Positions 6,975 to 45,252 of a DNA stretch of 47,857 nucleotides are shown here, piece by piece. The translations under genes and the position numbers were made by a program. Position 1 is the first letter of the stretch. Each line of letters opens with the position of its first letter. A model generated the notes under the pieces. It saw nothing but the letters and a program-made list of their open reading frames with translations. It was not told the DNA's origin and did not search any database. Origin of the DNA: a virus; the IMG/VR virus record IMGVR_UViG_3300032029_000002, positions 1-47,857 of that record; one strand, given 5' to 3'.

Positions 6975-7882
6975 TCAGGGTGCTCCTCATATCTCCACAC
7001 GGTGCAGTCTCGGCACAGCGGTATCTCGTCGAACCGGCGTTCAATATGCATTTGCCGGAGTTTCTCCATCTTCGCTCCACGCCAGATGTCATGCGGCTCA
7101 TCCTCCATGATGTTACTGAGAGGTATTGTATTATCATAGTCTATGCAGCAGGGAACTACGTCGCCGTTGCTTAACACGTTGAAGCTCTTCCATAGGCGGC
7201 TGCATGGGAGACGCTCTGGGTTTGGTTCCCCCCAGTATTTGCGTTGAAGTTCGTCTGGTAGGCTCGGCATGTCTCCGTGGAAGTTGTCATAGTGGACGTA
7301 GTATATGGCGTCTACGACTCCGCGCCACTCGTTGAAGAACGTTTCAGCGTTCTCCGCCAGCAGAGGCATGACGATGTAATGCATCTCCACGGATGGCTTA
7401 GTGTATCCTTTCTCGTCTCGGTACTTTATGAATCCACGGATGTTCTGTTTCGTCTGCTCCCAGTCCAGCCCCGGCTGTACCTTGTTATAGATTTTCTCTG
7501 TAGGCCCATAGAAGCTTATGGCTAGTTTGTCGAGGCGCTGCTGGTCTATTATGGCTTTCGTGTAGTTGTGGTTCATTAATGCCATGTTGGTGTAGACGGT
7601 GATGCTGCACTGGGGGTTAACTACTTTAATGTTGTTAAGTATCTTAAGTAGCCGAGGCTCAGTCAACGGCTCTTGCATGAGAAAGGGGCAGCATGAGGTG
7701 GCTGTCGGTATGACTGTGTCTATTATCCTTGTGAGTGTGCTCCACTTCGCGTCTGGGCGTGGCTTCATCTTCCGATGGGCACACATGATACACGACGTGT
7801 TGCATTTTGTCCCTGTCTCGAACTGGCAGAACCCTGGGAGATAGCTGCTGCCATATAGTTGGAAGGCTTCTTCGCTGCTCAA
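6950..7882 (-). CDS. Radical SAM/SPASM-domain enzyme
   Basis: 310 residues from TTG 7882 (MSSEEAFQLYGSSYLPGF). The frame stays open up to 8029, but that part lies inside the glycosyltransferase gene and looks like shadow sequence. Residues 27-34 carry the radical SAM motif CNTSCIMC (CxxxCxxC). The C-terminal part has a SPASM-like set: CSRLW, then NGDVVPCCIDYD, then PLCRDC. SPASM enzymes carry extra Fe-S clusters and usually modify peptides or proteins, sometimes sugars. The substrate is unknown; two Cys-rich proteins follow and a glycosyltransferase precedes. Rare in a virion operon. Confidence 0.85.
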   Translation of the reverse strand: MSSEEAFQLYGSSYLPGFCQFETGTKCNTSCIMCAHRKMKPRPDAKWSTLTRIIDTVIPTATSCCPFLMQEPLTEPRLLKILNNIKVVNPQCSITVYTNMALMNHNYTKAIIDQQRLDKLAISFYGPTEKIYNKVQPGLDWEQTKQNIRGFIKYRDEKGYTKPSVEMHYIVMPLLAENAETFFNEWRGVVDAIYYVHYDNFHGDMPSLPDELQRKYWGEPNPERLPCSRLWKSFNVLSNGDVVPCCIDYDNTIPLSNIMEDEPHDIWRGAKMEKLRQMHIERRFDEIPLCRDCTVWRYEEHPEWINLWSS

Positions 7883-8727
7883 AAATTCTCGCCCGTAGTG
7901 TGAATGTGAGGCACCCGATACTTCAGGTCTACTATCGTCTTGTATCCCGCTAGGTTGACTTGGTTGAACCAGTGGAGGTCTTCGCTGTGGTATCCGAGGT
8001 TCCCGCCCACTATCCCTGGGAGACTCCACCCGATGTTCTCGATTACTTCGCGCCGCGTCAGACAGTTTCCGTCGCCCCCCGCCACGGTTGTCATGGTCTT
8101 GTAGCGTTTCCAGTTAGGTATCGCCCATATCGGCACATATAGTGTGGCGTTGAGGAACGCGTTCCTGAAATGCTCTAGCTTATCCAGTGGAAGATTATAT
8201 TTTTTCAGTTCGTCCATTGTCCACGCGTATTTCCATACCATCGGGTATATGCCGAGCGCCCTATCCCGTTCTGGGCGTTGATATGATACTCCGAACGCCA
8301 CATCAGCGTCCAGCTTCAGCAGGCGTTTAGCGGCGTCACGTAGAGGCGGGTTGTCTCCACCCACCATCATGAAGTAGTCGGCGTCCCCGTCTAGGAAGTG
8401 TCCGCGTAGGTATTGGCGGTTCTTGAGGATGGGCATGAAGCCGGTTCCCGCCTGCTTCTGCGATATATACACCTTGTTTATGCTCCATGGGCAGTCTATG
8501 TGCGCTGTCTCCATGAGGCGGGTGACTCTGTTATAGTATGCGTCCTGTGTCTCGTCTAGCTCCGGCGTGTCTTTCACGGTTGTGATTGCCCACGTTATCT
8601 CCATTCTGTCGTGGGGGTAGTCTAGCCACTCTAAGGCGGCTATCATGTAGAGGAGAACGTAGTCCTTCACATACCCAGTCGGGATAACTACCTCGATCTT
8701 TGGGTATGTTGCAGCGTCTTCTTCCAT
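7879..8727 (-). CDS. Glycosyltransferase, GT-A fold (GT2-like)
   Basis: 282 residues. The N-terminus YPKIEVVIPTGYVKDYV matches the first strand of GT-A enzymes; residues 113-117 give DGDAD as the metal/nucleotide DxD site, followed by YFMMVGGDNPPL. No membrane segment is visible, so a cytosolic enzyme is likely. It overlaps the upstream small gene by 40 bases; its stop TGA overlaps the TTG start of the radical SAM gene. Probably glycosylates a virion protein or a glycan; the acceptor is unknown. Confidence 0.75.
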   Translation of the reverse strand: MEEDAATYPKIEVVIPTGYVKDYVLLYMIAALEWLDYPHDRMEITWAITTVKDTPELDETQDAYYNRVTRLMETAHIDCPWSINKVYISQKQAGTGFMPILKNRQYLRGHFLDGDADYFMMVGGDNPPLRDAAKRLLKLDADVAFGVSYQRPERDRALGIYPMVWKYAWTMDELKKYNLPLDKLEHFRNAFLNATLYVPIWAIPNWKRYKTMTTVAGGDGNCLTRREVIENIGWSLPGIVGGNLGYHSEDLHWFNQVNLAGYKTIVDLKYRVPHIHTTGENF

Positions 8728-9313: not shown

Positions 9314-10387
9314 CTATGCGGTCTCGGTTAATACGTATATTGCGTCTTTGTGCAGTGTTACGCTGTCCTGCCGTGATGTGACCGTTGCCCCGACTAGGTC
9401 TTCAACTGGTTTGCTGTAGTTCTCTATAGCGAGCCACCGTTTACGCCCTGTGAGTAACGCGTTTCCCCTGTCAAACACGATGGTTTTGCATACCGTGAAT
9501 GCTCCTGCCGCGTCCGTTGCTAGGTGTAGGGCGTTGCTGTTGTTAAGGAGAACGTCTATATTCTGGAACTTCATGTGATATTCTGGGCTTGATGGGGGGT
9601 GGCTTGTTAATCCGTTCAGCACCGCTGCGACTCCTGTGAGGGATACGCTGTGCTGCCACGCCTCCGAGGTGATTACCATGGTGTCCGCAACCCATTTATC
9701 CAGACCCACTCCTTGAATGGCGTCGTGTACGTCTGCTGTTGCTCCGCCGGTGTACTTGGTCTCAGCGGTGTCACCTGTAGCGGATGAGTTAAGGGTGCCG
9801 TCTCCGTCGGCGGCTGCTATTAGTGCCGTCAACGCTAAGTCGCTTGACTTCACACCCATGATTTCCCCCGCTGTTCTAACCTGCCACTCTACGAGGTTCC
9901 AGTTACCGTCTTCCAGCATCTCATTGTTTACCGCTAGGTTCCAGCCGAACGCCTTCGGGCTTATCGTCGCCTTCACAGTCTCAGGGGTTCCAGACGGGAT
10001 TTCTCCGCCTGAGCCATAGTCGTTGGCTTTCCATGAATCCTTCACCACAATGTCAACCGTTAAGTCGCCTCCCTCCCACCCATCAATAATATATGCGCTG
10101 ATTAGAGGTACAACATCTCTGACTGTCGCGGTGGCTATAAGTATGTCATTTATCTTTGTGGGGACAAGGTACGCTGCCCCTGCCAATCCGGTTGAACCTG
10201 ACTTCACTAGGAACTCTCTGAGAGGAATGTTTCTGATGCTCTCCCGTAGCTCACGTTCCACGCTTCGCTTTAACCCCATGAAGATGTTCGCATTACTATG
10301 AACATATGAGCCGTAGCTGTCCATATGCTCCTCCACGAGCTTCCGTGAGGGTTCGGTCTTCTCGACCATTTCCTGTATTCCATACAT
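9314..10387 (-). CDS. Major capsid protein, HK97-like, copy 2
   Basis: 357 residues. The N-terminus is helical (residues 1-60), then SGSTGLAGAAYLVPTKINDI begins the HK97-type core, with GWEGGDLTVDIVVKD and a C-terminal segment KRWLAIENYSKPVEDLVGAT. The same landmarks occur in the neighbouring 371-residue gene, so the two are paralogues. It has its own GTGGTGA ribosome site (7 bases before ATG), suggesting high expression. One copy may make hexons and the other pentons or a minor shell protein. Confidence 0.8.
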   Translation of the reverse strand: MYGIQEMVEKTEPSRKLVEEHMDSYGSYVHSNANIFMGLKRSVERELRESIRNIPLREFLVKSGSTGLAGAAYLVPTKINDILIATATVRDVVPLISAYIIDGWEGGDLTVDIVVKDSWKANDYGSGGEIPSGTPETVKATISPKAFGWNLAVNNEMLEDGNWNLVEWQVRTAGEIMGVKSSDLALTALIAAADGDGTLNSSATGDTAETKYTGGATADVHDAIQGVGLDKWVADTMVITSEAWQHSVSLTGVAAVLNGLTSHPPSSPEYHMKFQNIDVLLNNSNALHLATDAAGAFTVCKTIVFDRGNALLTGRKRWLAIENYSKPVEDLVGATVTSRQDSVTLHKDAIYVLTETA

Positions 10388-10495
10388 CTGTTTTCACCAC
10401 TATACAATGGTTTTATCCGATTTCGACCCCTACAGGTCTCAACGGGCAGGCTGTAACTCCTGCGATCAGAAAAAAACGTATTGATAATATAACGA
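10388..10495 (-). other. 108-base gap between the two capsid genes
   Basis: Contains a GCAGG/CCTGC hairpin (loop AGTTACAG) and a T-rich run on the minus strand shortly after the stop of the upstream capsid gene, then GTGGTGA before the next ATG. It may end part of the upstream transcripts or set the ratio of the two capsid proteins. No open frame with coding character. Confidence 0.35.
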
Positions 10496-11611
10496 CTACT
10501 GTTCTGTGATCTCACAGGACGCGTCGTTATAGATACAGCTAGCTTCTTGTCTAGCTGAAATCACTGCACCTACGAGGTCTCGTACAGGATCGCTGTAATT
10601 CTCCATCTTAAGCCAGCGCTTCCGCACCGCCAAGGAGGCGTTCGCCTTGTTTAACACAAAGCTATGCCACTTGCTTGACAGGTACAGCGCACCGTCCCCG
10701 GAGCTTCTGTTAACGGGGTTTATGTATCCCTTCATGCCGAGGAACGTCCCGAAGAACATGCTCCCCGCGTCCGCTATGATGGGTGCCCCATTCATGCTCC
10801 ACTTAGTGTGGAACTGGTCGCTGTATATCGCTGCGCTTGCGTCCTGAAGGATGTCGCTAACCGGCCCTGGGCCTATGATGAACACGTCGCTTACGAAGCC
10901 GTCCTCAAGGTTGAGGGCGAACGCGTCAAGTAGGTCTCCGAGGTCGGTGGTTGTGGCTGCTCCCGTTGTCAGCGCGTTCTGTGTGCCGTCACCGTGGTTG
11001 CCCGTGATGAGGCGTGCTAGGAACTGGTGGGACGAGAACTCGCCCATCTGCTCCGCTGCGCGTCTCAGGTGCACCTCGATGAGGTCGAACTGACTGTCCT
11101 CGATCAACTCGTTATTGATCTCCGGCCTGATGCCGAAGAGTTTCGGGGTGATCGTGACTTGGGTTGGCTCCATCGTCTCCGTGGGAAACGCTCCGCCGCC
11201 TCCGCTGTAGTGGGCGACGAACTGTCCGTCTACCTCGACATCAACCTTTAGGCTGCTGCCGGGGCAGGTGACGATGTTGCTTGCCTGTGGCACTAGGTCT
11301 GTCTCTGCCGCTGCGGTGAACAAGATATCGTATATCTTGTCCGGTATGAGGTAGGCGGCTCCGGCTATGTCTGTGGTGCCGCTTGCCCCAAGGTACTCCT
11401 GTATTAGTTTGCTGAGGCTTGCTCTGTCGAGCAGTTCCTTGGTTGCTGCTTTGTCGTCTTCCTTCAGTCCCTTATAGATAGAGGCATCAGTGGGGTGGAA
11501 GAAACCTGAGTTAAGGGTTTCCCTAACCTGTTTCCTCGGCTCCTCTGTGATTGCGAGAACTTCCTGTAGGTTTTTTCTTGGGTATGCTGTTTTGCTAAAA
11601 TCTCCTATCAT
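10496..11611 (-). CDS. Major capsid protein, HK97-like, copy 1
   Basis: 371 residues; core landmarks GASGTTDIAGAAYLIPDKIY, the strand SSLKVDVEVDGQFVAHY, and C-terminal KRWLKMENYSDPVRDLVGAV. Follows the decoration genes and precedes its paralogue. The first 70 residues are helical and may be a delta-like region cleaved by the prohead protease, or retained. The HK97 fold is inferred from gene order and these landmarks. Confidence 0.8.
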   Translation of the reverse strand: MIGDFSKTAYPRKNLQEVLAITEEPRKQVRETLNSGFFHPTDASIYKGLKEDDKAATKELLDRASLSKLIQEYLGASGTTDIAGAAYLIPDKIYDILFTAAAETDLVPQASNIVTCPGSSLKVDVEVDGQFVAHYSGGGGAFPTETMEPTQVTITPKLFGIRPEINNELIEDSQFDLIEVHLRRAAEQMGEFSSHQFLARLITGNHGDGTQNALTTGAATTTDLGDLLDAFALNLEDGFVSDVFIIGPGPVSDILQDASAAIYSDQFHTKWSMNGAPIIADAGSMFFGTFLGMKGYINPVNRSSGDGALYLSSKWHSFVLNKANASLAVRKRWLKMENYSDPVRDLVGAVISARQEASCIYNDASCEITEQ

Positions 11612-11621
11612 TTCTAGTCAC

Positions 11622-12068
11622 CTAGAATGTTCTTCCTACTAAGACAAGTATTTCGTCGCCCGTTGTTGATGCCGCTTGCAGGGCTACTCCGAGGCGTTGC
11701 CTTGTGCCAGTCCAGTTAAGCCCGCGCCACTCCACGAATTCATCGCTTGTGGTGTCAGGTATGGGAAGCACATAGGTTCCAACCGCGTCATTCTGTAGCA
11801 TGTCCATCGCTGTGATGGTGTCTCCTGCATACATCTTCACGACGCCTCTGAAGCACACCGGGATATAATCTCCGGCTGCTCCCGCCTTCAGGGTTACTGC
11901 GAAGCCGTCTCCATCCGCCGCTGCGGGGGCGACGCTTATCGCGCCGCTCACCGCTGTGCCGTGGACGTAGACTACTTCGTGTATCTCCACCGCTGCCTGC
12001 ACTTTACAGAAGCCTACGACATGTCCGTCGCTTATGTAGCCTTCTTCGTCTGGGTATAGGTCGGTCAT
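11622..12068 (-). CDS. Capsid decoration (cement-like) protein, copy 3
   Basis: 148 residues, beta-rich, opening MTDLYPDEEGYISDGHVVGF and containing AGAAGDYIPVCFRGVVKMYAG and GLNWTGTRQRLGVALQA. One of three tandem paralogues resembling DUF2190-type head decoration proteins. Copy 3 is closest to copy 1 in the middle part (SVAPAAADGDG). Adjacent genes are separated by 0-1 base, so all three are probably made from one mRNA. Confidence 0.65.
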   Translation of the reverse strand: MTDLYPDEEGYISDGHVVGFCKVQAAVEIHEVVYVHGTAVSGAISVAPAAADGDGFAVTLKAGAAGDYIPVCFRGVVKMYAGDTITAMDMLQNDAVGTYVLPIPDTTSDEFVEWRGLNWTGTRQRLGVALQAASTTGDEILVLVGRTF

Positions 12069-12518
12069 TTAGACCACCCTCCCGACTAGTACTAGCAGTT
12101 CATCTACAGATGCGGCTCCGGCTTGTAGCGCCTTGCCGAATCTGACTCTGGTTCCGGTGTAGTTTAGTCCCCTGAAACACGTCATGTCTGAGGCTCCGAT
12201 TGTCGTTATTGGTAATAGCAGGTTTGATGTTGCGTCGTTCTCAAGTATGTCGCCTTCATTGATAGCTGTCTCCGCTGCCTTCATCTTCACGACGCCGTAG
12301 AAACAGACAGGTATCCGGTCGTTTGTTGCGCCTGCTTTAAGCGCCACGCCGATACTGTCCGCATCATCCGCGCCCTGCTGAACCCATAGGTCCGTGCTTG
12401 ACGCAGGTGCCGTTGTGAAGACCGTGTAGTGGAGGTTCACTGTGCCGATGCACCGCGCGAAGCCCACCACCATTCCGTCGTCGATGAAGCCTTCCTCTAT
12501 TGGATATGTGTCAGTCAT
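12069..12518 (-). CDS. Capsid decoration (cement-like) protein, copy 2
   Basis: 149 residues; paralogue of its two neighbours (MTDTYPIEEGFIDDGMVVGF; NDRIPVCFYGVVKM; ELLVLVGRVV ending). The middle segment STDLWVQQGADDADS differs from the other copies, so surface loops have diverged while the core is kept. Confidence 0.65.
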   Translation of the reverse strand: MTDTYPIEEGFIDDGMVVGFARCIGTVNLHYTVFTTAPASSTDLWVQQGADDADSIGVALKAGATNDRIPVCFYGVVKMKAAETAINEGDILENDATSNLLLPITTIGASDMTCFRGLNYTGTRVRFGKALQAGAASVDELLVLVGRVV

Positions 12519-12519
12519 A

Positions 12520-12969
12520 TTAGATCACCCTCCCTACAAGTATCAGCACCTCGTCGCCCGAGGCTGCTGCGTGTCCGAGGCATGTGCCGAGGACGCATTG
12601 GCTGCCGTCCTGGTCGTATCCTCTCCACGCTACGAACTCGTCGTGGGTGTATGTGGGTATGGGTAGTACATATGTTCCGAGGCTGTCGTTTATCACTGCG
12701 TCGTTGGGCACCATGGCTGCTCCTGCGTACATCTTTACGATGCCGAAGAAGCAGACTGGGATGTAGTCGCCTGCCGCGCCTTCTTTTAGTGCGACGGCTA
12801 TTCCGTCTCCGTCCGCTGCCGCTGGTGCGACGCTGATGTATCCTGCTACGTTGGTTCCGTGTATGTATACTACTTCAAGAAATTCTACCGCTGCTTGACA
12901 TTTGCAGAATCCTATTACGTTTCCATCGCAAATGTAGCCCTCTTCTGAGGGGTAGTTATCTGTTGCCAT
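12520..12969 (-). CDS. Capsid decoration (cement-like) protein, copy 1
   Basis: 149 residues; first of the tandem trio (MATDNYPSEEGYICDGNVIG; GDYIPVCFFGIVKMYAG; VLILVGRVI ending). It carries cysteines (FCKCQ) absent from copy 2. Preceded by two GNRA-loop hairpins in the mRNA leader. ATG 12969 fits the conserved start of its paralogues; an upstream out-of-frame ATG is ignored. Confidence 0.65.
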   Translation of the reverse strand: MATDNYPSEEGYICDGNVIGFCKCQAAVEFLEVVYIHGTNVAGYISVAPAAADGDGIAVALKEGAAGDYIPVCFFGIVKMYAGAAMVPNDAVINDSLGTYVLPIPTYTHDEFVAWRGYDQDGSQCVLGTCLGHAAASGDEVLILVGRVI

Positions 12970-13069: not shown

Positions 13070-14819
13070 CTTTGGAGAGATCGACAACTGGTTTATTATC
13101 GGTCTCGGTGAGGCTTTTCTCGGGTGCCTTAAACCCTGCCTTGACATGAGTCTCGAGATTCTCAAGTTTCTCCTTGAGTATCTCTAGCTCGTCCACTGTC
13201 TCCGTGATGGGTTCCTGCGGTTCCTCTGGCTCGGGAGGTGTTTCAAGGGCTTTTATCCTGTCCTCGTATCCCGCCACTGTCTCGGTCATGGAGTCCGTTT
13301 TCTCGTTCAACGCGTCTATGGAGGCTAGTTTCTCCTCCCTTCCGTCAACAGTTTCCTTCAAGGAATCTATTTTATCAGAGATGTTATTCAAGTCAGATTT
13401 CATAGCAGAGTTCGCCTTTAATTCATCCATGTCTTCAGTCATCTTCACCAGTTTTACGCCATATTTGTTTGCCCCCTCTTGGTATGAAGCAAAGTCTGTT
13501 CCTAATTTAGTTATTTCAGCCCATATTTTTTCAGCGTGTTTCGTGAACTCGTTTGGGATATTAGATATTATTCCTCTTGTTTCAGTAATTGCGGTGCGGT
13601 GTTCTGACGTAAATTCATATATTTGTTTAAGCATTTCTTTCATTGAGTTTACGTCAGTTTTTAGTTCGTTAATGTCGTTTTTCATGGCACTGTGTTCTGC
13701 TTCGTGGATTTTGTCTTTTTGCTGTTGTTCAAATATTGCTTTCTCCTCAGCTAACTTCGTTTGCAGGTTTTCTTTTTCATCAATGGTTTTATTTTGTTCT
13801 TTGAAAGAGGGAATTTTAATCGGTTCTAGCGGTTTCAACGACTCTGCCTTTATGTCGAGCGGCGTGAATGCTGGAACCGATTCCTCTACAGGCGGCTCTT
13901 CCTCCGTCTCGCCCTCTACCTTGTGTTTAATGCTTCCACAGTAGGCTTCCGGATCATCCTTGTCTTGGTTCTTCGCGACACAATCAGCGAAGCTAGTATA
14001 GTCCCCCATGGGTTCTCCTATGTCGGCGGGTTCCTCTGCCTCCTGAACCGCACCGACCTCTAAAGCATCATCATACTTTCTTGGGTCGTGTGCAATCTGG
14101 AAGACCGGCTCAATGGAGTAGTTTCCCCGCTCCTGTTCCGTTGTCATCTTAGATAACACATCCTTGTTATACGTCTCATAGACCTTCGGAGCGAAGTCCC
14201 GTAGGAACAATCCTGTTATCAGGACTTCCTGCGATGACTTCTCCCGTATGGTTTCCATGAGTTCGATTGTCGTGCCTTTCACCCCAGGTAGCTCTGGGTC
14301 TTCCACTAGGCTTAACCGCACGAACTGTATGCCTAGCGGCGTCTTCTGCTCTGTCGCGTCGTTCTCGTTGTAGCGGTAGTTGGCGCTTATGCTGACGCCG
14401 TGGATGGGTTTCTTGCCCCATTTCTCCATGTACCACTGCTCTGTACGTTGACCGTTTTTAACGAGGTCTCTGTCCTTGAGTTTCGCCACGTATTCGCTGC
14501 TGTTTACCTCTGCGACGTACTCGATGTAGCCGTCCTCATAGTCCGCGTCCAGTACGTGTCCTTTGAAGCTCGGCTCGACTCCTCTCTGCTCTGATGCGAG
14601 CCATCTGTCGTACTCGTGGTTTACGTCGATTGGTTTCCCCGCAAGAGTCCTTGCGCTACGTAGAAGCTCCTCCTCTATGTATTCGCGGTTGTTCCGGGAC
14701 ACCGTTGGGAAAAGCGCTACGCCTTTTATGCGTATCTTGCTCCCTATCTGGCTCGTGGTTTTAAAGTCGTCCCTGAACCACCGGAAGGCTTCGTATAGTT
14801 TCTGTGTCAACGTTTTCAC
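13053..14819 (-). CDS. Prohead protease fused to scaffold
   Basis: 588 residues. Residues 1-210 look like a herpes/HK97-type prohead protease: candidate catalytic His68 in GKPIDVNHEYD and Ser143/Ser145 in PIHGVSISANY. Residues about 330-570 are a long charged coiled-coil with repeated K, E and D, typical of scaffold, ending TETDNKPVVDLSKDPLKG. The protease-scaffold fusion and its position before decoration and capsid genes are standard for tailed viruses. The start overlaps the end of the sugar epimerase-like gene by four bases (ATGA-type). Confidence 0.75.
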   Translation of the reverse strand: MKTLTQKLYEAFRWFRDDFKTTSQIGSKIRIKGVALFPTVSRNNREYIEEELLRSARTLAGKPIDVNHEYDRWLASEQRGVEPSFKGHVLDADYEDGYIEYVAEVNSSEYVAKLKDRDLVKNGQRTEQWYMEKWGKKPIHGVSISANYRYNENDATEQKTPLGIQFVRLSLVEDPELPGVKGTTIELMETIREKSSQEVLITGLFLRDFAPKVYETYNKDVLSKMTTEQERGNYSIEPVFQIAHDPRKYDDALEVGAVQEAEEPADIGEPMGDYTSFADCVAKNQDKDDPEAYCGSIKHKVEGETEEEPPVEESVPAFTPLDIKAESLKPLEPIKIPSFKEQNKTIDEKENLQTKLAEEKAIFEQQQKDKIHEAEHSAMKNDINELKTDVNSMKEMLKQIYEFTSEHRTAITETRGIISNIPNEFTKHAEKIWAEITKLGTDFASYQEGANKYGVKLVKMTEDMDELKANSAMKSDLNNISDKIDSLKETVDGREEKLASIDALNEKTDSMTETVAGYEDRIKALETPPEPEEPQEPITETVDELEILKEKLENLETHVKAGFKAPEKSLTETDNKPVVDLSKDPLKG

Positions 14820-15679
14820 CTTTGACTGTTTTCCATGTCGAACGCGGTGCTCCTTATCCCTAGTTCAAGGTGCATCCTCGGGTTGTATCCGAGTCCCCGC
14901 GCCTTAGTTATGTCGAACCAGCTACGCGGCAGGTCATAGGGGCTGTACTCAGCCTTCACGTACTCTATCGACGTAGACGGGTATATCTGCTGCACGATGC
15001 CTGCAACCTCGGCGACGCTGTGCTCTTCACCGAACCCGAGGTTGTAAATGTGTCCCCGTTGTCCCCGTTCCTGTACGAGTTCCATGCCGCGCACAACGTC
15101 TTCAACGTGCACGTAGTCCCGCGTCTGACTACCGCTCCCATGGACTGTGATAGGCTTCCCGTTTATGGCTTGCCGGAGGAACACGTTCACTGGACCGGCT
15201 CTGCGTCCGGGTCCGTATATGCTGCTGAACCGCACTATCTTGGCGTCTACTCCTCGTGTGCTGACCCATTTCTGTAGGTATAGTTCGGCTGCTAGTTTCG
15301 ATATTCCGTAGTTGCACATTGGGCGACATGCGGAGTCCTCTTTGTGGGGTACTTCGCTGAGTCCGTAGACGGCCCCGGTGCTTGTGTAGATGAGGCTTAT
15401 GTCGGTATTCTCTGTGAGGCGTAGGAGGTTTATCATTCCCTTCGCGTTTACGTCGAGATCATTGTACGGGTTCGCTTCCCCAGTGTTGAGATAGGCTTGC
15501 CCTGCGAGGTGGTATATCTGGTCGGGCATCCATGTGTCTACGACTGCCTTGAGTTGCCCGTAGTCCCTGAGGTCGTGTCCGTCGGCGATGTCGTATCCAT
15601 ATACTTCGTGATGTTCCTTGAGATGATTCTCTAGGTGGGTTCCGATGAAACCCTTGTTCCCTGTAACAATTATGCGCAG
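14816..15679 (-). CDS. NAD-dependent sugar epimerase/dehydratase (extended SDR)
   Basis: 287 residues if translation starts at CTG 15679, giving RIIVTGNKGFIGTHL with the GxxGxxG NAD site (Gly7, 10, 13). The first ATG (15529) would remove this whole Rossmann strand, so the non-AUG start is preferred; GGTGA lies 7 bases upstream. Catalytic set: Ser100-Thr101 in IYTSTGAVYG and Tyr124/Lys128 in NYGISKLAAE. Family members are nucleotide-sugar 4-epimerases or 4,6-dehydratases. It overlaps the aminotransferase end by 10 bases and probably makes the keto-sugar or epimer for the cassette. Confidence 0.8.
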   Translation of the reverse strand: MRIIVTGNKGFIGTHLENHLKEHHEVYGYDIADGHDLRDYGQLKAVVDTWMPDQIYHLAGQAYLNTGEANPYNDLDVNAKGMINLLRLTENTDISLIYTSTGAVYGLSEVPHKEDSACRPMCNYGISKLAAELYLQKWVSTRGVDAKIVRFSSIYGPGRRAGPVNVFLRQAINGKPITVHGSGSQTRDYVHVEDVVRGMELVQERGQRGHIYNLGFGEEHSVAEVAGIVQQIYPSTSIEYVKAEYSPYDLPRSWFDITKARGLGYNPRMHLELGIRSTAFDMENSQR

Positions 15680-16479
15680 GTTTCTCTCACCCGTTTAGAT
15701 GAACTCTCCGCGTTTGGGCATCCCGTGTTCACCCACAGTCCCTTGTTGTCCTGATACCATGGGTGCTCGTAGACGAGGTACTTGTAGTATCCGTTGGACT
15801 CGTCATAGGTTCCTAGTTCGGCTTCTATCGCCGTCTTATGAAGTTTAAGGTACTGCCAACCATGAAAGGCATTATTATATGGGATCTCATAATTATAGCC
15901 CATTGTCACCATGACGCCGTCCTCGTTCATCCCATGGCGGCGAATATATTTGCAGTTCTGGTAGACATCTTTATGGGGCGTCGCTATTGCTCCACCTTGG
16001 TAGGCGGGGAGGTTCTTGGTTGCGTAGAAGCTGTAGGTTCCCGCATCTCCAAAGGTTCCGAGTTTCTTACCCTTATACTCTGCCCCGAAGCCCTGGGACG
16101 CATCCTCTATTATCTTTACGCCGTATCTATCCTTTAACGCGAGGAAAGCATCCATATCACAGCTTCTGCCGAATAGGTGGACTGGGAGAACTGCTCGAAC
16201 CCTCATGCCTAGCCCTGTTCGGAGTATCTGCTCCACTTTCTCTGGGTCGAGTAGGTTGCTTTCATCCACGTCTACGAAGACAGGTATGGCTCCCATCATG
16301 AGGATGGTGTTTGCAGTGGGGGGATATGTGTAGGGTGTAGTTATCACGTAGTCCCCGTACCGTATCCCTGTGGCGAGGCCTGCTGTGTGGAGCGCCGCTG
16401 TTCCGCTGTTAACCGTCGCCACATATGGAGAGCCGAGGTACTCCGCTAACTCCTGCTCGAACAGCGTCACGGGGTTCAT
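15670..16479 (-). CDS. DegT/DnrJ/EryC1-type sugar aminotransferase, shortened
   Basis: 269 residues; PLP lysine is Lys155 in FYATKNLPAYQGGA, with NSGTAALHTAGLA (phosphate binding) and EDASQGFGAEYKGKKLGTFG typical of the family. Usual length is 360-400 residues; here the region between about 210 and 235 is compressed, although the C-terminal landmarks YEHPWYQDN and CPNAESSSKRV remain. It may be a minimal enzyme. Its ATG overlaps the acetyltransferase stop (ATGA). Expected reaction: transamination of a nucleotide keto-sugar. Confidence 0.75.
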   Translation of the reverse strand: MNPVTLFEQELAEYLGSPYVATVNSGTAALHTAGLATGIRYGDYVITTPYTYPPTANTILMMGAIPVFVDVDESNLLDPEKVEQILRTGLGMRVRAVLPVHLFGRSCDMDAFLALKDRYGVKIIEDASQGFGAEYKGKKLGTFGDAGTYSFYATKNLPAYQGGAIATPHKDVYQNCKYIRRHGMNEDGVMVTMGYNYEIPYNNAFHGWQYLKLHKTAIEAELGTYDESNGYYKYLVYEHPWYQDNKGLWVNTGCPNAESSSKRVRETCA

Positions 16480-22321: not shown

Positions 22322-22538
22322 ATAACCAACCATTAAACAAAACCCAAAACTCTTTCTGAATATAACCAATAACTCCTATAAGCCTTGTTTTGGGTCCCAT
22401 TATTGTTTTTTGATCGTTAGGGGGTGGGGGTGTTGTTGTTGTTTGTGTGCTGTGTATAGCTGTGTGCTGTGCTGTGTATCTATGGATCAATGTATCTGTG
22501 CTGTGTGTTATATGAGAAAAAGGATAAAGAAAGAAGGG
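22322..22538. other. Convergent gap with inverted repeat and GT-rich tract
   Basis: ACCCAAAAC (22342-22350) pairs with GTTTTGGGT (22387-22395), followed by a T run, a possible terminator between the converging genes. Bases 22430-22510 are low-complexity with repeated TGTGCTGTG units. The plus strand switches here from A/C-rich to G/T-rich. No convincing gene. Confidence 0.5.
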
Positions 22539-24179: not shown

Positions 24180-24392
24180 ATGCCTAAATGTCCTCGGTGT
24201 GGTAAATCTGAGAATGTTCACTCCGACGAGCTTCATGTTAAGTGGATTCATATGTGTTATAATTGCGGTAAACAATGGTGGACTGATAAACCAAGAGAAG
24301 CCTGGATTTCACGAGATCAACCCACTCCCCAAGACATAGAATATAATAAATGGTTAAAACAACATTTAGAGAATCAGAGACAAAAATCTTAG
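24180..24392 (+). CDS. Zinc-ribbon protein
   Basis: 70 residues with CPRCGKSENVHSDE and CYNCGKQWW, a classic two-knuckle ribbon, and a helical tail. Leaderless. The 3' end carries AATCTTAGTTC, a sequence repeated at other gene ends. Confidence 0.7.
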   Translation: MPKCPRCGKSENVHSDELHVKWIHMCYNCGKQWWTDKPREAWISRDQPTPQDIEYNKWLKQHLENQRQKS

Positions 24393-24407
24393 TTCAGATT
24401 AAACAAT

Positions 24408-24418
24408 AACTTTATATG
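24408..24418 (+). promoter_or_regulatory. Promoter of ncRNA candidate 1
   Basis: AACTTTATATG centred 26 bases before 24440, where the RNA's closing stem begins. No open frame follows. Confidence 0.55.
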
Positions 24419-24439
24419 TTGACTAGGCTTATACTCTTT

Positions 24440-24560
24440 GGGTGAGACTTTGGATAACCAGGGGGTGAAAGGGTTTTACGCATATCTTTCGCGGTTTTCC
24501 CCTTCCACATACACACCTATCCGCTACACCTATCCTGGTGATGAGTGTGGCCTCACCCAC
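24440..24560 (+). ncRNA. Structured non-coding RNA candidate 1
   Basis: The predicted +1 is the first base of GGGTGAG (24440-24446), which pairs with CTCACCC (24552-24558). Inside, ACCAGG (24457-24462) pairs with CCTGGT (24534-24539), extended by GGTG/CACC (24464-24467 with 24527-24530). A direct repeat ACACCTATCC (24513, 24526) offers an alternative pairing partner. The region lacks coding character. The 7-bp end stem recalls a tRNA acceptor, but no T-arm or anticodon arm is visible. Function unknown. Confidence 0.6.
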
Positions 24561-24608
24561 CCCCCAAAAAGTGATAAGAAGTGATTGGGGGTTAGTGTTT
24601 CACCGAAA

Positions 24609-24620
24609 CCTTTTTATATT
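24609..24620 (+). promoter_or_regulatory. Promoter
   Basis: ACCTTTTTATAT centred about 35 bases before ATG 24650; leader about 8 bases. Confidence 0.5.
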
Positions 24621-24649
24621 TTTTTAACGCTCTTAGTTGTGGATAAACA

Positions 24650-24838
24650 ATGAATAAACAAATATTATATCAGAGATATGTAGAAAGTAACGGGATCAGA
24701 AAATATGACATAAGGACAACGATGCAGTTTGATGATGATCTCATATCAGAAGATAATGCTAGGGCCATGTTCCTCGACTTTCTAAAAGATCGCATCAATG
24801 ATCCCGAACCTCTTATAATAGTTGACATTGAAAGGTGA
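24650..24838 (+). CDS. Small protein, unknown
   Basis: 62 residues (MNKQILYQRYVESNGIRKYD), an acidic alpha/beta unit. First gene of a run of coupled small genes; its stop overlaps the ribosome site of the next. Confidence 0.55.
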   Translation: MNKQILYQRYVESNGIRKYDIRTTMQFDDDLISEDNARAMFLDFLKDRINDPEPLIIVDIER

Positions 24839-26101: not shown

Positions 26102-26320
26102 TTGACCAAAATGGGAAAAACAGTTTATCTGTTAGTTGAAGGAGAAGACCTATATGCGCATAACAGTATAGATGAAGCATTAGAGCGACATAAGACGCTC
26201 TCTAGCTTTATCTTGAGTGATGCGAGCTTGGTATCTTTATCCTTCAATAAGAAAGAAGAGAAACTTGAACCGATTCAAGTTGATCTTAAGGAAATAGCCA
26301 AACACTACAACGGTGAATAA
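26102..26320 (+). CDS. Small protein, unknown
   Basis: 72 residues; either leaderless from TTG 26102 (MTKMGKTVYLLVEGEDLYAH) or from ATG 26111. Acidic alpha/beta. It precedes and overlaps the ParB-like gene by 8 bases, hinting at a linked role. Confidence 0.55.
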   Translation: MTKMGKTVYLLVEGEDLYAHNSIDEALERHKTLSSFILSDASLVSLSFNKKEEKLEPIQVDLKEIAKHYNGE

Positions 26321-27332
26321 TTTGCCGTATGTTGAGGTTCCAATCGACAAGATTGAAGACAACCCATTTCAGACACGTAAAGAATATGACAAAGACGCCG
26401 CTCTTAGTATTGGCACTTCAGTTTTAAAAGCACGGCATGGATTACTTCAAGCACCATTAGCGCGCCCCCACCCTGAGAAGACGGGTTTTTATCAACTTGG
26501 TTTTGGACATGGACGCATTGCAGGATTAAAAGAGGTTGGAGTAGAAACCGTTACTCTTAGAGTAGAGGATATGACTGACTCTGAGATGAAAAAATATGTT
26601 CTTATAGAGAACGTTAATCGCAGTGATTTAACTGATGACGAGATGTGGGACGGGTTAGAACAATTCAGAAAAGATAAAGGCTGGTCGGGAAAAGAACATA
26701 ATTTCCAATCTATGATGACGACTGAAACGGGGGTTGACCCCACCACAATTCTTAGACATTATAGAACTAAACCAATTTTAGATGCCTTAAAACTCTTCCA
26801 TGGAAGAGTTTCAACTAGATATGCCTCTATTGTTCTGCCAATTTCTAATCAATATGATAATGAAATAGCTGTAAAGGTTCTTGAATGGGCTACCAAAAAG
26901 GATTGGGGGGCAGTTACTTTTGATAAGGTGCAACAAAATCTTAGAAAGTTTGATGAATCCGTCTTCTATGATATCCTCGAATTCAAGCCGGGAACCGAAG
27001 TCATAGCAAAACTAACTGAAACAATAGACCTGTTTACCCCCGAAGAACAGAAACAAATCCTTGAACAAATACGAGTGCGACGATACAATCAAGAGGATGC
27101 AATAAAATTCATTGATCGTGTAATCAAAGGAGATATATCCCAAACTACTGAAGTAAAAAACGAAGCCGAACAAATCATGAAAGATTTCAACGATGTGGCA
27201 ACAGATATTGTGGGGTGGGGATTCAATCATTTTATGATCCTAGGAGAACAAAGGTGGCAAGAAGCCTGTGAAATATTCACAACAATCGAAGATAAGATGC
27301 GGTGGTTAAAAACTAGGGGATGGGAGAAATAA
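26313..27332 (+). CDS. ParB/Spo0J-like DNA-binding protein
   Basis: 339 residues from GTG 26313. The N-terminal ParB fold is clear: VEVPIDKIEDNPFQTRKEYD, then LGFGHGRIAGLKEVG (the usual GxxR motif region) and IENVNRSDLTDDE. A helical DNA-binding middle follows and the C-terminus is unfamiliar. Viral ParB-like proteins act in partition, replication or, in some groups, as CTP-dependent clamps. No ParA is nearby. A palindrome in the 45.25 kb region is a possible site. Confidence 0.7.
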   Translation: MNNLPYVEVPIDKIEDNPFQTRKEYDKDAALSIGTSVLKARHGLLQAPLARPHPEKTGFYQLGFGHGRIAGLKEVGVETVTLRVEDMTDSEMKKYVLIENVNRSDLTDDEMWDGLEQFRKDKGWSGKEHNFQSMMTTETGVDPTTILRHYRTKPILDALKLFHGRVSTRYASIVLPISNQYDNEIAVKVLEWATKKDWGAVTFDKVQQNLRKFDESVFYDILEFKPGTEVIAKLTETIDLFTPEEQKQILEQIRVRRYNQEDAIKFIDRVIKGDISQTTEVKNEAEQIMKDFNDVATDIVGWGFNHFMILGEQRWQEACEIFTTIEDKMRWLKTRGWEK

Positions 27333-27979: not shown

Positions 27980-28000
27980 CTTTTTTCTTAGTTGTGTTAG

Positions 28001-28022
28001 AACAGTCATAACATTTAAATAG
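28001..28022 (+). promoter_or_regulatory. Promoter with AACAGTC element (2), ncRNA candidate 2
   Basis: AACAGTC at 28001-28007, then AACATTTAAATAGG; TATA centred 26 bases before 28042. Confidence 0.6.
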
Positions 28023-28041: not shown

Positions 28042-28161
28042 TTGTCTAGCGTAAAATTACCGGTGGCATCCCTTAGCGTCGGTGGGGCGCTTCAAACCAC
28101 AGAGCACGACAGAAGCCGACTGCTCTCATGTTTATGGTGGGAAGTGTGGGTTGCTAGACAA
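28042..28161 (+). ncRNA. Structured non-coding RNA candidate 2
   Basis: About 120 nt. TTGTCTAGC (28042-28050) pairs perfectly with GCTAGACAA (28153-28161), and the predicted transcription start is its first base. Internal elements: hairpin AGCGTC-GGTGG-GGCGCT (28074-28090), hairpin AGAGCA/TGCTCT (28101 onward) and AACCACA pairing with TGTGGGTT beside the end stem, giving a multi-branch fold. A possible pseudoknot joins GTCGG and CCGAC. No long open frame with coding character. The next gene has its own promoter starting 20 bases later, so this is a separate transcript. Confidence 0.65.
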
Positions 28162-28180
28162 CTTATCTTTGTTGTACTTG

Positions 28181-28203
28181 AACAGTCGCAACCTTTTTAT
28201 AGT
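28181..28203 (+). promoter_or_regulatory. Promoter with AACAGTC element (3)
   Basis: AACAGTC at 28181-28187, then AACCTTTTTATAG; TATA about 30 bases before ATG 28227. Confidence 0.6.
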
Positions 28204-28226
28204 TGTTTAAACTTAATGATTCTGAT

Positions 28227-28862
28227 ATGTCTGAGCAGACGTTTGAAGACAAAGTGGTTCTACACTTAGAGACCATTGAACGGAACATCACACAGATATT
28301 CCAGAAAATAAACGAAGTAAACGGAACCCTAGATTATCTGCGTGAACAGTCTCTCGATAAAGAGTTTAAGACACCGAAGCCACCGAAAGAGCCAAAGGTA
28401 GAGGATCACGTAGACACGGGGCCGCCCACCAAAGATGACCTTATTGCGGTTCTCGGGGACGGCGTGTTTGATACAGACTTGGAGTATGTGGCGGGAGGGT
28501 TGGCGATAAAGACGCGTAAGTATCTCAAAGACCTTTGGGATGGTTACAATGATACACTTAAAGAGTTTAAGTATGGCTGGCATAGTGACAAGGAAGCCAA
28601 AGTGTATCAGTGGGAGTATGAGTACAAGAAGGCTTCCGATAGGCCCAAAGGTGAGCCTAAGAAGGCAAGCCAAGACTGGAAAAAGATGAAGGGAAAAGGC
28701 AAAGGCGGAACATGGAACTACACTGATCAGCAGCCTGAGATAGTGGATAAGATGAATGAGAAGAACCAGTACGAGGACGCGGATTATCGCTACAGTTTAT
28801 ATGGTGACGTTCTTCCTGAGACGGGGCTTCCTAAGTTTATAAGTCGTTGGCCCAAGGATTAA
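28227..28862 (+). CDS. Coiled-coil, lysine-rich protein, unknown
   Basis: 211 residues from ATG 28227 (MSEQTFEDKVVLHLETIERN), leaderless or nearly so. N-terminal coiled coil, a proline/lysine linker (KTPKPPKEPKVE), then a basic low-complexity stretch (KMKGKGKGGTWNYTDQQP). Possibly nucleic-acid binding. A TTG at 28203 would overlap the promoter and is rejected. Confidence 0.6.
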   Translation: MSEQTFEDKVVLHLETIERNITQIFQKINEVNGTLDYLREQSLDKEFKTPKPPKEPKVEDHVDTGPPTKDDLIAVLGDGVFDTDLEYVAGGLAIKTRKYLKDLWDGYNDTLKEFKYGWHSDKEAKVYQWEYEYKKASDRPKGEPKKASQDWKKMKGKGKGGTWNYTDQQPEIVDKMNEKNQYEDADYRYSLYGDVLPETGLPKFISRWPKD

Positions 28863-29258: not shown

Positions 29259-29726
29259 TTGGCTGAAAACCACCTTAATGAGCTTGAGAACCTCAACAAG
29301 CTACGCAACTACTTCCAACCCCCAATCACGCAGCACGAGGCGGCGAACACCGTGAACCAACTGATAGCGGCGGGATACGTCCAACAATTCATAGCGGATT
29401 ACGTCGGAGTGGCACCCTCAACAATCACCTACCTCAAAACAGCAGGCCAACACATCACAGAGGAACTGTGGCCCCACATCGAGGAGCAGGGATGGGCGCT
29501 ACAGAAAACCTATTTCATCAGCTTCCTACCCCCGGAGCAGCAGTTGAAGGTTATGAGACATGAACAGGAGTACGGGGGGCTTGAGGAGGAGGGATGGAAA
29601 AAGTTCATGGGGTTTGATAAATACGGAACCACTCCGATCCAGGATGGTGATCTTGTGGGTGACTCGATTAAGAGAAAGATAAAGTTAAATAATGGTTCAA
29701 AGCAAACTATCACGGAGGAAAAGTGA
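29259..29726 (+). CDS. HTH protein, unknown
   Basis: 155 residues from TTG 29259. Residues about 38-62 form a helix-turn-helix (QQFIADYVGVAPSTITYLKT). The coding strand is C/A-rich in the first half and G-rich from about 29530. The stop overlaps the next ATG. May be a DNA-binding partner of the preceding product. Confidence 0.6.
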   Translation: MAENHLNELENLNKLRNYFQPPITQHEAANTVNQLIAAGYVQQFIADYVGVAPSTITYLKTAGQHITEELWPHIEEQGWALQKTYFISFLPPEQQLKVMRHEQEYGGLEEEGWKKFMGFDKYGTTPIQDGDLVGDSIKRKIKLNNGSKQTITEEK

Positions 29727-30835: not shown

Positions 30836-32773
30836 ATGGAAAGCGGGTTCTACGATTTTATTCATGATGGTGGCAGATATGAGGAAGAGTATTTCTCAAA
30901 TAAACCCTTTTTCACGATAGATTATCATGATCTCTATGAGTGGAACCCAGATTTTAGTTTAGTTATCCTAAACATATTTCCTCGGCAGCTACCGAGGCTA
31001 GAGTCCACCACAGGGAAACCCATCCGGTTCATCAATCTCATAGAGACTACGCCAATACGGAATATTAACAGCGGCAACATCAATCAACTCATCCAGACAC
31101 AGGGAATCGTGACCCGGGCCACCCTCGGCAGAAGCCAACTAAAAACGGCGACATGGATATGTAGAACCTGTGGTGGGAGGCAGGAAGTTGAGCAGGACAC
31201 CCAGTTTCTCAAGAAGCCGGTTGAGTGTAATGTCTGTCAGAAAAAGGTTCAGTGGGAACTCGATTTAGAGCGAAGCAAATACATCGATTATCAAGAGGTA
31301 CATATACAGGAGTCACCCGATCAACTGCCACCGGGAGAGACACCTATCACTTTCTCAGTCACCTTATTAGGGGACTTGGTTAAATCTGCGAACCCAGGGG
31401 ATAGAGTTAACATCGTCGGCGTGGTGTCTGTTGAGCAGGCTTCACCGACGGATAAGAAACTTGAGCTTAAACGAACCCTCATCGCCAACAACGTTGAGGT
31501 TATTAACAAGGATTTAGAGCTTATGGATTTCACCGAGAAAGACCTATCAGAGATAACAGAGTTAACGAAAGAGGATTATCTCTATGAACATATCGCACAC
31601 AGCATCGCACCAAACTGCTACGGATATGATCACATCAAGAAAGGAATAGCATTAATGCTCGCCGGAGCGGAACGGGAGCAGCAAGGACTTACGTGGAGAC
31701 GAGGAGACAGCCACATCCTGCTCGTAGGTGATCCCGGCGTCTATAAGAGCCAGTTTCTTCAACTCACAAGCAAAATAGCCCCACGCGGGATGCTCACCAC
31801 GGGACGCGGCTCAACAGCGGCGGGATTGACGGCGGCAGCCATCAGCGACGGCGACGGATGGGTTATAGAGGCAGGGGCTATGGTGCTTGCGGATAAGGGC
31901 GTTTGCTGCATTGACGAGATGGATAAGATGAAGGCTCGTGACAGGGATGCGATCCACCCCGCTATGGAGCAGCAAGTTGTTATGAAGAATGCTGCGGGTA
32001 AGAACGTTATCCTGAATAGTCGTTGCAGTGTGTTGGCGGCGGCTAATCCCATTCATGGGCGGTGGAACGAGTATCAGACTGTGGCGGAGAACCTTAATCC
32101 GAAGAAGTTTCCACCCACCCTTCTAAGCAGATTCGACCTAGTATTCATTATCCTTGATAAACCCGATAAAGAGGCTGACCGCGAGGTAGCTCGGATAATA
32201 TTGAACACTAGCACCCGACCCACTATGGAGCCGATACCGCCAGCCCTTCTCAAGAAGTATTTTAGTTATTGTAAACAGGTTAAACCAAAGATTAATGAAC
32301 AGGTTATGGGCTATGTGGAGGACTACTATGTGGAGCTTCGCCGACGTAATAAGGATAACAGTGCAGTCGCCATAACGCCCCGCCAACTAGAATCTATACG
32401 TCGCCTCATATTCGCCTCAGCACGGCTTCATATGAGGAAGGTGGCTACGCTTGAGGACGCTAAGAACGCGTTAGAGCTATTCGAGAAAAGTATGACAGAT
32501 GTGGGCGTAGACCCGTTGACAGGCAAAATGGATATAGACTTGCTTGAGGTGGGTCAGAGCAAAACCATGACAGACCTCATACTAGTCATAGAGCGCACCG
32601 TTAAACAGCTTCGCGAGGAGTCCTCGGATGGGCGGTGTGGGGAGGATGAACTTGTGATGCGGGTTAACCGTATGGGTGTGGAGGAGGATAAAGTCAGGAG
32701 CATGTTGAGGAAGATGGAGCGGATGAGGCCGCCATTGATCTATACTTCGATGGGCTGCGTGTATCCCTGCTAA
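30836..32773 (+). CDS. mcm: MCM replicative helicase
   Basis: 645 residues, full-length MCM. N-terminal zinc site Cys109/112/131/134 (CRTC, CNVC); ATPase with Walker A GDPGVYKSQ (Lys304), GSTAAGLTAAAISD helix-2 insert, Walker B VCCIDEMDKM (Asp360-Glu361), Arg finger SRFDL (431-434). The C-terminal winged helix is likely (DELVMRVNRMGVEED). No Orc1/Cdc6 is visible in the window, so the virus must use its own initiator (RHH, ParB-like) or the host's. Confidence 0.92.
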   Translation: MESGFYDFIHDGGRYEEEYFSNKPFFTIDYHDLYEWNPDFSLVILNIFPRQLPRLESTTGKPIRFINLIETTPIRNINSGNINQLIQTQGIVTRATLGRSQLKTATWICRTCGGRQEVEQDTQFLKKPVECNVCQKKVQWELDLERSKYIDYQEVHIQESPDQLPPGETPITFSVTLLGDLVKSANPGDRVNIVGVVSVEQASPTDKKLELKRTLIANNVEVINKDLELMDFTEKDLSEITELTKEDYLYEHIAHSIAPNCYGYDHIKKGIALMLAGAEREQQGLTWRRGDSHILLVGDPGVYKSQFLQLTSKIAPRGMLTTGRGSTAAGLTAAAISDGDGWVIEAGAMVLADKGVCCIDEMDKMKARDRDAIHPAMEQQVVMKNAAGKNVILNSRCSVLAAANPIHGRWNEYQTVAENLNPKKFPPTLLSRFDLVFIILDKPDKEADREVARIILNTSTRPTMEPIPPALLKKYFSYCKQVKPKINEQVMGYVEDYYVELRRRNKDNSAVAITPRQLESIRRLIFASARLHMRKVATLEDAKNALELFEKSMTDVGVDPLTGKMDIDLLEVGQSKTMTDLILVIERTVKQLREESSDGRCGEDELVMRVNRMGVEEDKVRSMLRKMERMRPPLIYTSMGCVYPC

Positions 32774-36116: not shown

Positions 36117-36947
36117 ATGCCGACTCTGCCAAGCGATACTGCTATCTGCAACCGAATAGAGTCCCTCAAAGACACCCATCTACGCATGATGTTCAAATAT
36201 ATGAAGAAAACCCTCGGCAGAGTCAGCGAAGTCGCAGGCAAATACGCTCCCCACCGAGACGACGTATTCTATGACACCGATGACAGAACAGGGGAAGAGT
36301 ATGTGTTGTTCGCCGTCAAGACGGCTAAACGCAAAGGGCGGCTCCGACCCGTGTGCAGACCGATCTCAACAAAATATGATGCATGGGTAAAAGAGGTAGC
36401 CGAATATTTCTCAGGATATGAATCTGAGCATCCTTGGCTTCTCCATGAGAACCCTGAGACCTCTAAAAAATATGCTATGGATTATGCTAGTGAGATGCTT
36501 GACGGACTTCACTGGAACATGATCGACTACACAAAATCCATTGAGATACCCTATACCAAGGAACAGGTTCTTCATGAGCGGCTTGGAGACAGCGGCTACC
36601 CAGAGTGGCTCATCGACCTCGGCGACGGAGTGAGGGCGTGGACGCGTTACCGAGACTATGTGAAGCAAAGCATGAAGGTGGAGCAGAGATGGAAACCCGC
36701 GACGAGCCACGTCCTACGGAAACGGGAGAGCCTCACCCTCGACATGGATTACGGTTTCGACCCAATCGATCTCGCATATATTGGGGGGTGGACAGAGCAC
36801 AGCCAACAGGACAACGTGCCAGCCGCCTTGAAGCACTATCTCTTCCTAGACCTTCAGAGCGCCAAGGACACACTGCCTATCTTGAAGCGTCAAGGTATGC
36901 GGTATTTCCGCAAATTATTAGTCCCATTAGACGTGCTGAACCGATAA
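36117..36947 (+). CDS. Divergent tyrosine recombinase (integrase-like)
   Basis: 276 residues. Candidate catalytic set in order: Arg35 (LGRVSEVAG), Lys71/73 (TAKRKGRLRP), His198-x-x-Arg201 (SHVLRKRE), GGW (223-225) in place of the LGH box, and Tyr241 (LKHYLFLD). Spacing fits archaeal integrases lacking a long N-terminal arm domain. If active it would integrate or resolve genome dimers. No tRNA 3' end (attP) is visible nearby. Leaderless promoter. Confidence 0.6.
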   Translation: MPTLPSDTAICNRIESLKDTHLRMMFKYMKKTLGRVSEVAGKYAPHRDDVFYDTDDRTGEEYVLFAVKTAKRKGRLRPVCRPISTKYDAWVKEVAEYFSGYESEHPWLLHENPETSKKYAMDYASEMLDGLHWNMIDYTKSIEIPYTKEQVLHERLGDSGYPEWLIDLGDGVRAWTRYRDYVKQSMKVEQRWKPATSHVLRKRESLTLDMDYGFDPIDLAYIGGWTEHSQQDNVPAALKHYLFLDLQSAKDTLPILKRQGMRYFRKLLVPLDVLNR

Positions 36948-38511: not shown

Positions 38512-38652
38512 ATGAATGAAAAACTAAAAAACAGAATACGGGGATTGATTGGTGCATCAAAGAAGGGACCCATAACCCATTTCACAGGAGAACCAACATC
38601 AATTCCCGAAACACCACAACCGAAACCAATCTTTGTTTCTACTAAAGAATGA
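38512..38652 (+). CDS. Small basic protein, unknown
   Basis: 46 residues (MNEKLKNRIRGLIGASKKGP), proline-rich second half. Preceded by the recurrent junction linker AAGTGAGATAGAATGAA. Confidence 0.5.
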   Translation: MNEKLKNRIRGLIGASKKGPITHFTGEPTSIPETPQPKPIFVSTKE

Positions 38653-44257: not shown

Positions 44258-44781
44258 AGGTTATTACTAAGTTTCCTTATTGGGCTTGTGGAAGACCAAT
44301 GAAAGCGTATCGGGGAGCGTACCCAGAAGGATATTTGGGGCGACTTGAAGAAATTATTCCGATGAAAAACAAACAAGTGGTTCATCTGTTTGCAGGAAAA
44401 TCATCAAGAGTCAATGATTCAGACATCACAATAGATATTAACCAAGACATAGAACCAGATCTATTAGAAGATTGTACGGGTGAAATCTCAATAGAAGATA
44501 ACTTTGCTGATGTTGTTCTTGTGGATCCTCCTTATGATACTGATAAGATGATATACGGGAAGCCTCTTTATGGAACAGATTATGTTAAACCATACTCGTT
44601 CTGTAAGGAAGCTGTACGAATAACCAAGCCGGGAGGATACATCTGCATCCTTCATCAACTCGTCTACAAAACACTTAAACACACAGATAGATACGCACTC
44701 ATCCCCATAACGACTGGGCCAAACATGAGGATCCGCGTCTTGAATATCTTTCGTAAGAAAAACCGCCTAACCGACTTTTGA
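44254..44781 (+). CDS. DNA adenine (N6)-type methyltransferase
   Basis: 175 residues from ATG 44254 (ATGA overlap). SAM motif VVHLFAGKSS (42-51), catalytic DPPY (91-94) in VVLVDPPYDT, and KPGGYICILHQLV. Compact, without a separate recognition domain. With the neighbouring PPC enzyme it suggests a modified viral genome or an RNA substrate. Confidence 0.7.
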   Translation: MKVITKFPYWACGRPMKAYRGAYPEGYLGRLEEIIPMKNKQVVHLFAGKSSRVNDSDITIDINQDIEPDLLEDCTGEISIEDNFADVVLVDPPYDTDKMIYGKPLYGTDYVKPYSFCKEAVRITKPGGYICILHQLVYKTLKHTDRYALIPITTGPNMRIRVLNIFRKKNRLTDF

Positions 44782-45252
44782 TAGTTTATGGCAAACTAAT
44801 ATACCGGTAACACTTATATACTAGATGAGTTACAGGTATATTGAATATGTCCGCCACTGTTAGCCAATGGCCTACGGTGGATTTATCTTAGTTTATTCTC
44901 TACTATAATGGTTAACTTTGGCGTATTCAACTAAGAACGGTTAATTTAGTTTTCCGAATATAGAAAATCTAAAGTGCTTATATATCATTTTCGTTTTTGT
45001 ATATAATATCTCGTTTTGATATATATCACAACATCCCTTTTTTGTGACGTTCTAATAAGAAACAACGGTTTTTCCATGATTCTATACATATGTAAGAAAC
45101 ACTAAGATCCAACGAAAAATTTATAGTTTGTGTCTTCTTAGTAAAGATTTCTGTTACCTAGTTGACATTCCTTATAACGACGCTGTACGAAACGACAGAG
45201 AATGATACATGAAATGTCTATAACTTCAAATCTTTTCCAGAAATGGGAATAA

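Follow-up and report, generated by a model that had tools for sequence, protein, structure and literature searches.

We favour, with moderate confidence, the reading that positions 28042-28161 of an archaeal virus genome hold one of two operator-controlled viral noncoding RNA genes, the other lying at 24439-24559, and that each yields a transcript of ∼120 nt which is tied together at its ends and probably binds protein. A promoter box, an operator, an end helix, its spacing from the promoter, the length, a second copy of the layout and a common 3′ motif are all present in the sequence; from this we infer transcription of both elements (here RNA1 and RNA2), the transcript ends, protein binding and action in trans. 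The analysed DNA, called the window, is the 47,857-bp IMG/VR record IMGVR_UViG_3300032029_000002 of a tailed archaeal virus. If the reading is true, two RNA genes of one design, both behind one dispersed operator, would open a concrete way to test gene regulation and RNA biology in Bathyarchaeia viruses, a group known from metagenomes.

Layout and promoter of RNA1

The features of the RNA1 region are:
27986..28008, operator-like palindrome core TCTTAGTT-N7-AACAGTCA, precedes the RNA1 TATA box
28010..28021, plus strand, BRE/TATA box of RNA1, AACATTTAAATA
28042..28161, plus strand, RNA1, noncoding RNA candidate of 120 nt with end helix 28042-28050 / 28153-28161
28135..28149, plus strand, 3′ motif TGGTGGGAAGTGTGG of RNA1, common to RNA2
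28166..28188, operator-like palindrome core TCTTTGTT-N7-AACAGTCG, 3′ of RNA1
28190..28201, plus strand, promoter AACCTTTTTATA of the next gene
28227..28862, plus strand, next gene, leaderless ATG at 28227, 211 aa

On the plus strand an operator is thus followed by a BRE/TATA box, a helix arm, about 100 GC-rich bases, the second arm, a T-rich/operator stretch, AACCTTTTTATA and the ATG. The GC content of the RNA1 island is about 0.5-0.65, compared to 0.2-0.3 in the flanks. The perfect 9-bp end stem of the original prediction is present (TTGTCTAGC at 28042-28050, GCTAGACAA at 28153-28161); it can gain one G-U pair, and its inner pairs have a pairing probability near 1.0. The first helix base lies 22 nt past the TTTAAAT core of the TATA box TTTAAATA (28014-28021), a correct promoter distance that recurs in RNA2 and matches the geometry of the promoter and leaderless gene at 28190-28227. 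The stem had been placed exactly at +1. It does follow a good archaeal TATA box, but since the usual archaeal spacing predicts a start at about 28042-28047, "exactly" was too strong.

The next gene has, as was claimed, its own promoter, and this bears on whether the element could instead be a structured 5′ leader of gene 28227, attenuator- or riboswitch-like, with the first promoter reading through and the second giving a leaderless mRNA. RNA1 and gene 28227 share a strand, the end helix is 66 nt from the ATG, the 3′ side of RNA1 can re-pair in longer context folds, and RNA2 too has a gene behind it. However, each downstream gene carries a complete AACCTTTTTATA box directly before it, T-rich sequence separates RNA1 from AACCTTTTTATA, and by inspection the proteins encoded downstream bear no relation to each other, neither having a family (none was found for the 211-aa product of gene 28227). 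We therefore regard a leader as rather unlikely. The T-rich sequence at 28162-28176 could mark the end of an RNA1 transcript.

One frame of RNA1 is open, running for 75 codons from a TTG at 28042 (28042-28269), and its start at the predicted +1 would suit a short leaderless protein gene. The start codon is TTG, though, and the codon score is −0.10 against 0.13 ± 0.13 for the virus genes (off-frame −0.20 ± 0.16), which is within about 2 sd of genes; by this score no frame of RNA1 looks convincingly coding. The frame also crosses the next operator and TATA box into the next gene, and it leaves the inverted repeat unexplained, so that a protein gene appears very improbable.

Chance controls and the fold of RNA1

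Folding against shuffled controls, a check proposed with the original prediction, went against it: the whole RNA1 fold (−39.8 kcal/mol) has z = −1.18, equalled by 27 of 200 shuffles, and is not more stable than composition alone would give. As a pseudoknot candidate, only a 4-bp UCCC/GGGA pairing is visible. A perfect inverted repeat of at least 9 bp occurred anywhere in the 248-nt spacer in 39 of 400 shuffles (about 10%), with its 5′ arm at the +1 slot in 16 of 1500, and, when the repeat at this slot had also to span 90-150 nt, in 6 of 2000. The chance of the helix at its place is roughly 0.3-1%.

The ordinary fold and the ease with which a repeat of this length arises somewhere in the spacer are what a DNA-level or neutral feature would predict, either a chance inverted repeat between two operator-promoters or a DNA site for replication or partition, with no functional RNA. 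Genes for a ParB-like protein (26313-27332) and an MCM helicase (30836-32773) are close by. RNA2, however, keeps the exact TATA-to-helix spacing and also the length although its helix differs in sequence, which a protein-bound DNA repeat would not need, and both elements have the 3′ motif in common. We consider this explanation unlikely, but it and the leader model are the chief rivals of the favoured reading.

A second element laid out like the first

RNA2 lies 3.6 kb from RNA1, in the spacer 24393-24649:
24387..24409, operator-like palindrome core TCTTAGTT-N7-AACAATAA, precedes the RNA2 TATA box
24410..24418, plus strand, TATA box CTTTATATG of RNA2, end helix 22 nt after its TTTATAT core
24439..24559, plus strand, RNA2, 121 nt, laid out like RNA1
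24439-24446 / 24552-24559, 8-bp end helix of RNA2, TGGGTGAG / CTCACCCA
24536..24550, plus strand, 3′ motif TGGTGATGAGTGTGG of RNA2
24562..24592 (approximate ends), plus strand, C-run/G-run hairpin directly 3′ of RNA2
24607..24618, plus strand, promoter AACCTTTTTATA of the following gene (ORF 24650-24838)

Both elements sit in AT-rich spacers and have nearly the same GC content (0.52 and 0.51), the TATA-to-helix distance is equal (22 nt) and the spans are 120 and 121 nt. The RNA2 fold is more stable than its composition explains (z = −2.78), and the hairpin at 24562-24592 is a possible 3′ domain or terminator of RNA2. We scanned both strands of the whole window for a TATA-like site followed at the +1 offset by an end helix that has 8 bp or more and a span of 95-145 nt. 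Two of the 52 TATA-like sites qualified, namely RNA1 and RNA2, while control offsets gave 0.37 sites on average and reached two at 7 of 116 offsets. An end helix at the +1 slot of RNA2 arose in 24 of 2000 shuffles; as RNA2 was noticed after inspection of several spacers, its p-values carry some selection. Of 31 unrelated IMG/VR places with a closely related pattern, examined as controls, none had a helix longer than 6 bp or was preceded by a TATA box.

The end-helix sequences of the two elements are wholly different, yet both are paired. The motif TGGTGnnnAGTGTGG occurs in both RNAs, where its first base is 16-18 nt ahead of the 3′ arm, and nowhere else in the window. The best 15-nt match between them has 12 identities at a near equal distance from the 3′ arm (16 of 5000 shuffles were as good). 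Beyond this no homology of the two could be demonstrated: a single-sequence covariance model of one RNA did not detect its sister element, and a structure-aware alignment of the pair scored below interior shuffles. We rejected a common cloverleaf or tRNA-like shape, the four-way junction preferred by RNA2 making up 0.7% of the RNA1 ensemble and being reached by 11% of shuffles. The second copy of the gene layout in the window strengthens the case for an independent noncoding RNA gene, which is still the best reading of RNA1 even though the part of the claim that named AACAGTC as its promoter was wrong.

RNA class and homologues

RNA1 had been described as neither tRNA, 5S nor obvious C/D RNA, and all three hold. 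ARAGORN found no tRNA or tmRNA in the window, and the T-arm GTTCRANNC is absent from the sequence; no Rfam 5S model matched at lax E-values. By inspection, RNA1 has neither a C box (RUGAUGA) nor a D box (CUGA), and RNA2 has GUGAUGA without CUGA. An H/ACA guide RNA was not found either, the sole ACA at the 3′ end sitting within the end helix rather than single-stranded, and Rfam giving no match. The Rfam/Infernal search that had also been proposed matched no family by covariance model even at lax thresholds, apart from one chance match on the opposite strand (E = 3.7).

No homologue of the RNAs outside the virus genome was found in Rfam, phages or IMG/VR contigs, and none in 36 records and genomes, in 257 Bathyarchaeia genomes, in the retrieved loci or by pattern in IMG/VR. 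The lone R1 match in the 257 genomes sits within an oxidoreductase-like ORF, and weak blastn matches in L026 and L027 are located in coding sequence; we discarded these. Antisense pairing with start regions of the virus was no better than in shuffles. We also set aside a strong hairpin at about 38539-38611 (best z = −4.7 in its spacer), which falls within a 45-codon ORF from about 38512.

The dispersed operator-like palindrome

AACAGTC, taken for a promoter box in the original prediction, is instead the right half of a dispersed spaced palindrome, TNNTNGTT-N7-AACNANNA; the BRE/TATA box that follows serves as promoter. A weight matrix of the palindrome finds 46 sites in the window; the true matrix gave 92 matches on both strands, compared to 0-4 for column-permuted matrices. 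The strict pattern occurs 24 times at spacer 7, once each at spacers 3 and 10 and at no other spacer of 4 to 12, and dinucleotide shuffles contain it 0-1 times. The sites span positions 3284-44913, mostly in the early region (23.2-44.9 kb). The majority lie at gene junctions directly before start codons, and only some are then followed by a TATA box; the distance between the two, start to start, is 34 nt at 23430, 27980 and 28160 and 30 nt at 24381. The halves complement each other no more than permuted halves do, and the palindrome therefore looks like a protein-bound DNA site rather than an RNA hairpin, that is, a putative stoperator- or operator-like element. Among the candidate DNA-binding proteins of the virus, the one encoded at 29259-29726 weakly matches a regulator.

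In the nearest relatives the palindrome is absent or nearly so. Across IMG/VR, TTATCTTTGTT-N7-AACAGTC matches in five contigs, in three of which it lies at a terminase gene start and is no operator; the promoter pattern AACAGTCnnAACnTTTwwATAG has no IMG/VR match. At 44773-44913 a third operator is followed by a TATA box (AACACTTATATA, 44809-44820), then by a hairpin in the vicinity of 44850-44881 and a further operator. This unit opens an AT-rich stretch of 729 nt that lacks ORFs (z about −2.7); it may represent an origin or one more small RNA unit, the third.

Proposed function

We propose that a separate BRE/TATA promoter, preceded by a copy of the dispersed viral operator, drives transcription of each RNA, and that a viral or host regulator could, given this operator placement, switch each RNA along with the early genes. 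Transcripts would start at the 5′ helix arm or a few bases into it and end in the T-rich or next-promoter region past the 3′ arm. The helix would join both RNA ends, shield the RNA and display its inner arms together with the 3′ motif UGGUGnnnAGUGUGG, a surface that most likely binds protein as trans-acting regulator, decoy or scaffold. A more speculative extension, to which we give little credence, is that the two RNAs are founders of a fast-evolving family of structured, operator-controlled and trans-acting RNAs of Bathyarchaeia viruses. Members would keep their identity through the end helix, the overall length and the 3′ UGGUGnnnAGUGUGG motif, not through the sequence as a whole. They might act in trans, for example, as decoys for an RNA-binding or defence protein of the host or as parts of a viral RNA-protein machine.

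Comparison with known systems

The packaging RNA of phi29 is also about 120 nt long, and an end helix joins its 5′ and 3′ ends. The elements described here resemble it in length and end helix, but they match neither its sequence nor its model, lie in the early region and not beside the terminase, and are two in number. Orphan structured RNA candidates of phages and archaeal viruses, which have no Rfam family, are alike in being short GC-rich intergenic genes in an AT-richer context with their own promoter and an end helix. In contrast to these, one virus here carries two copies with different sequences and one layout, again with no Rfam match at lax thresholds. The accessible portions of the literature on Bathyarchaeia viruses, archaeal small RNAs and an archaeal-virus transcriptome yielded no counterpart RNA, nor did those on archaeal viruses, including Bathyarchaeia viruses, yield a virus-encoded structured noncoding RNA.

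For the operator part the closest parallel, by analogy and as far as the available part of that report goes, is the promoter-bearing intergenic repeats of halovirus HF2, 58- or 29-bp blocks with a promoter inside, nine in all (PMC8707807). These too are dispersed intergenic elements of an archaeal tailed virus, lie at early genes and contain or adjoin BRE/TATA boxes, whereas the motif found here is a 23-bp spaced palindrome in about 46 copies, only some of them then followed by a TATA box; the same part of the report mentions no RNA element beside the repeats (PMC8707807). Mycobacteriophage stoperators, too, are regulator sites scattered in many copies over the viral genome, but asymmetric ones (PMC9283540). 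The putative protein site described here shares the many genome-wide copies and is a spaced palindrome.

The virus and its likely host

The gene set includes portal, terminase, MCM helicase, RadA, a ParB-like protein and two major capsid paralogues. The viral MCM best matches Bathyarchaeia MCMs (about 40%), and relatives of the ParB-like gene, its neighbour 27320 and RadA are present on Bathyarchaeia genome contigs; a Bathyarchaeia host is therefore likely. No close relative of the virus was found in the collections searched. The ParB-like query and the gene downstream of RNA1 found no relatives in IMG/VR, MCM found only those of 26-39% without useful common neighbours, and the major capsid protein found relatives of 31-54% that cover late genes only. 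The nearest cellular relative is a Bathyarchaeia genome contig, L163 (ParB 36%, RadA 45%, partial match to gene 27320), with relatives of window genes at L163:1-1303 and L163:9685-10701; it ends just short of the expected RNA1 position.

A tyrosine recombinase-like protein is recognisable by eye at 36117-36947 (...HVLRKRESLTL...DLAYIGGWT...Y), for which no family matched at the thresholds used; the virus may therefore be temperate. The two major-capsid paralogues, in tandem and 37% identical, occupy 9314-12969 together with an adjoining minus-strand tandem of three related proteins, each about 149 aa long, and L026 retains two capsid paralogues and one protein of the ∼149-aa type. Within the late (virion) block, 6950-8727 and 14816-16479 hold genes that by eye are radical-SAM-, glycosyltransferase-, sugar epimerase- and DegT-aminotransferase-like; related radical-SAM-like and glycosyltransferase-like copies are found in L027, L028 and L030. 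The switch region between the late (minus) and early (plus) blocks contains a low-complexity GT-rich stretch at 22420-22520 (TGTGCTGTGTATAGCTGTG...).
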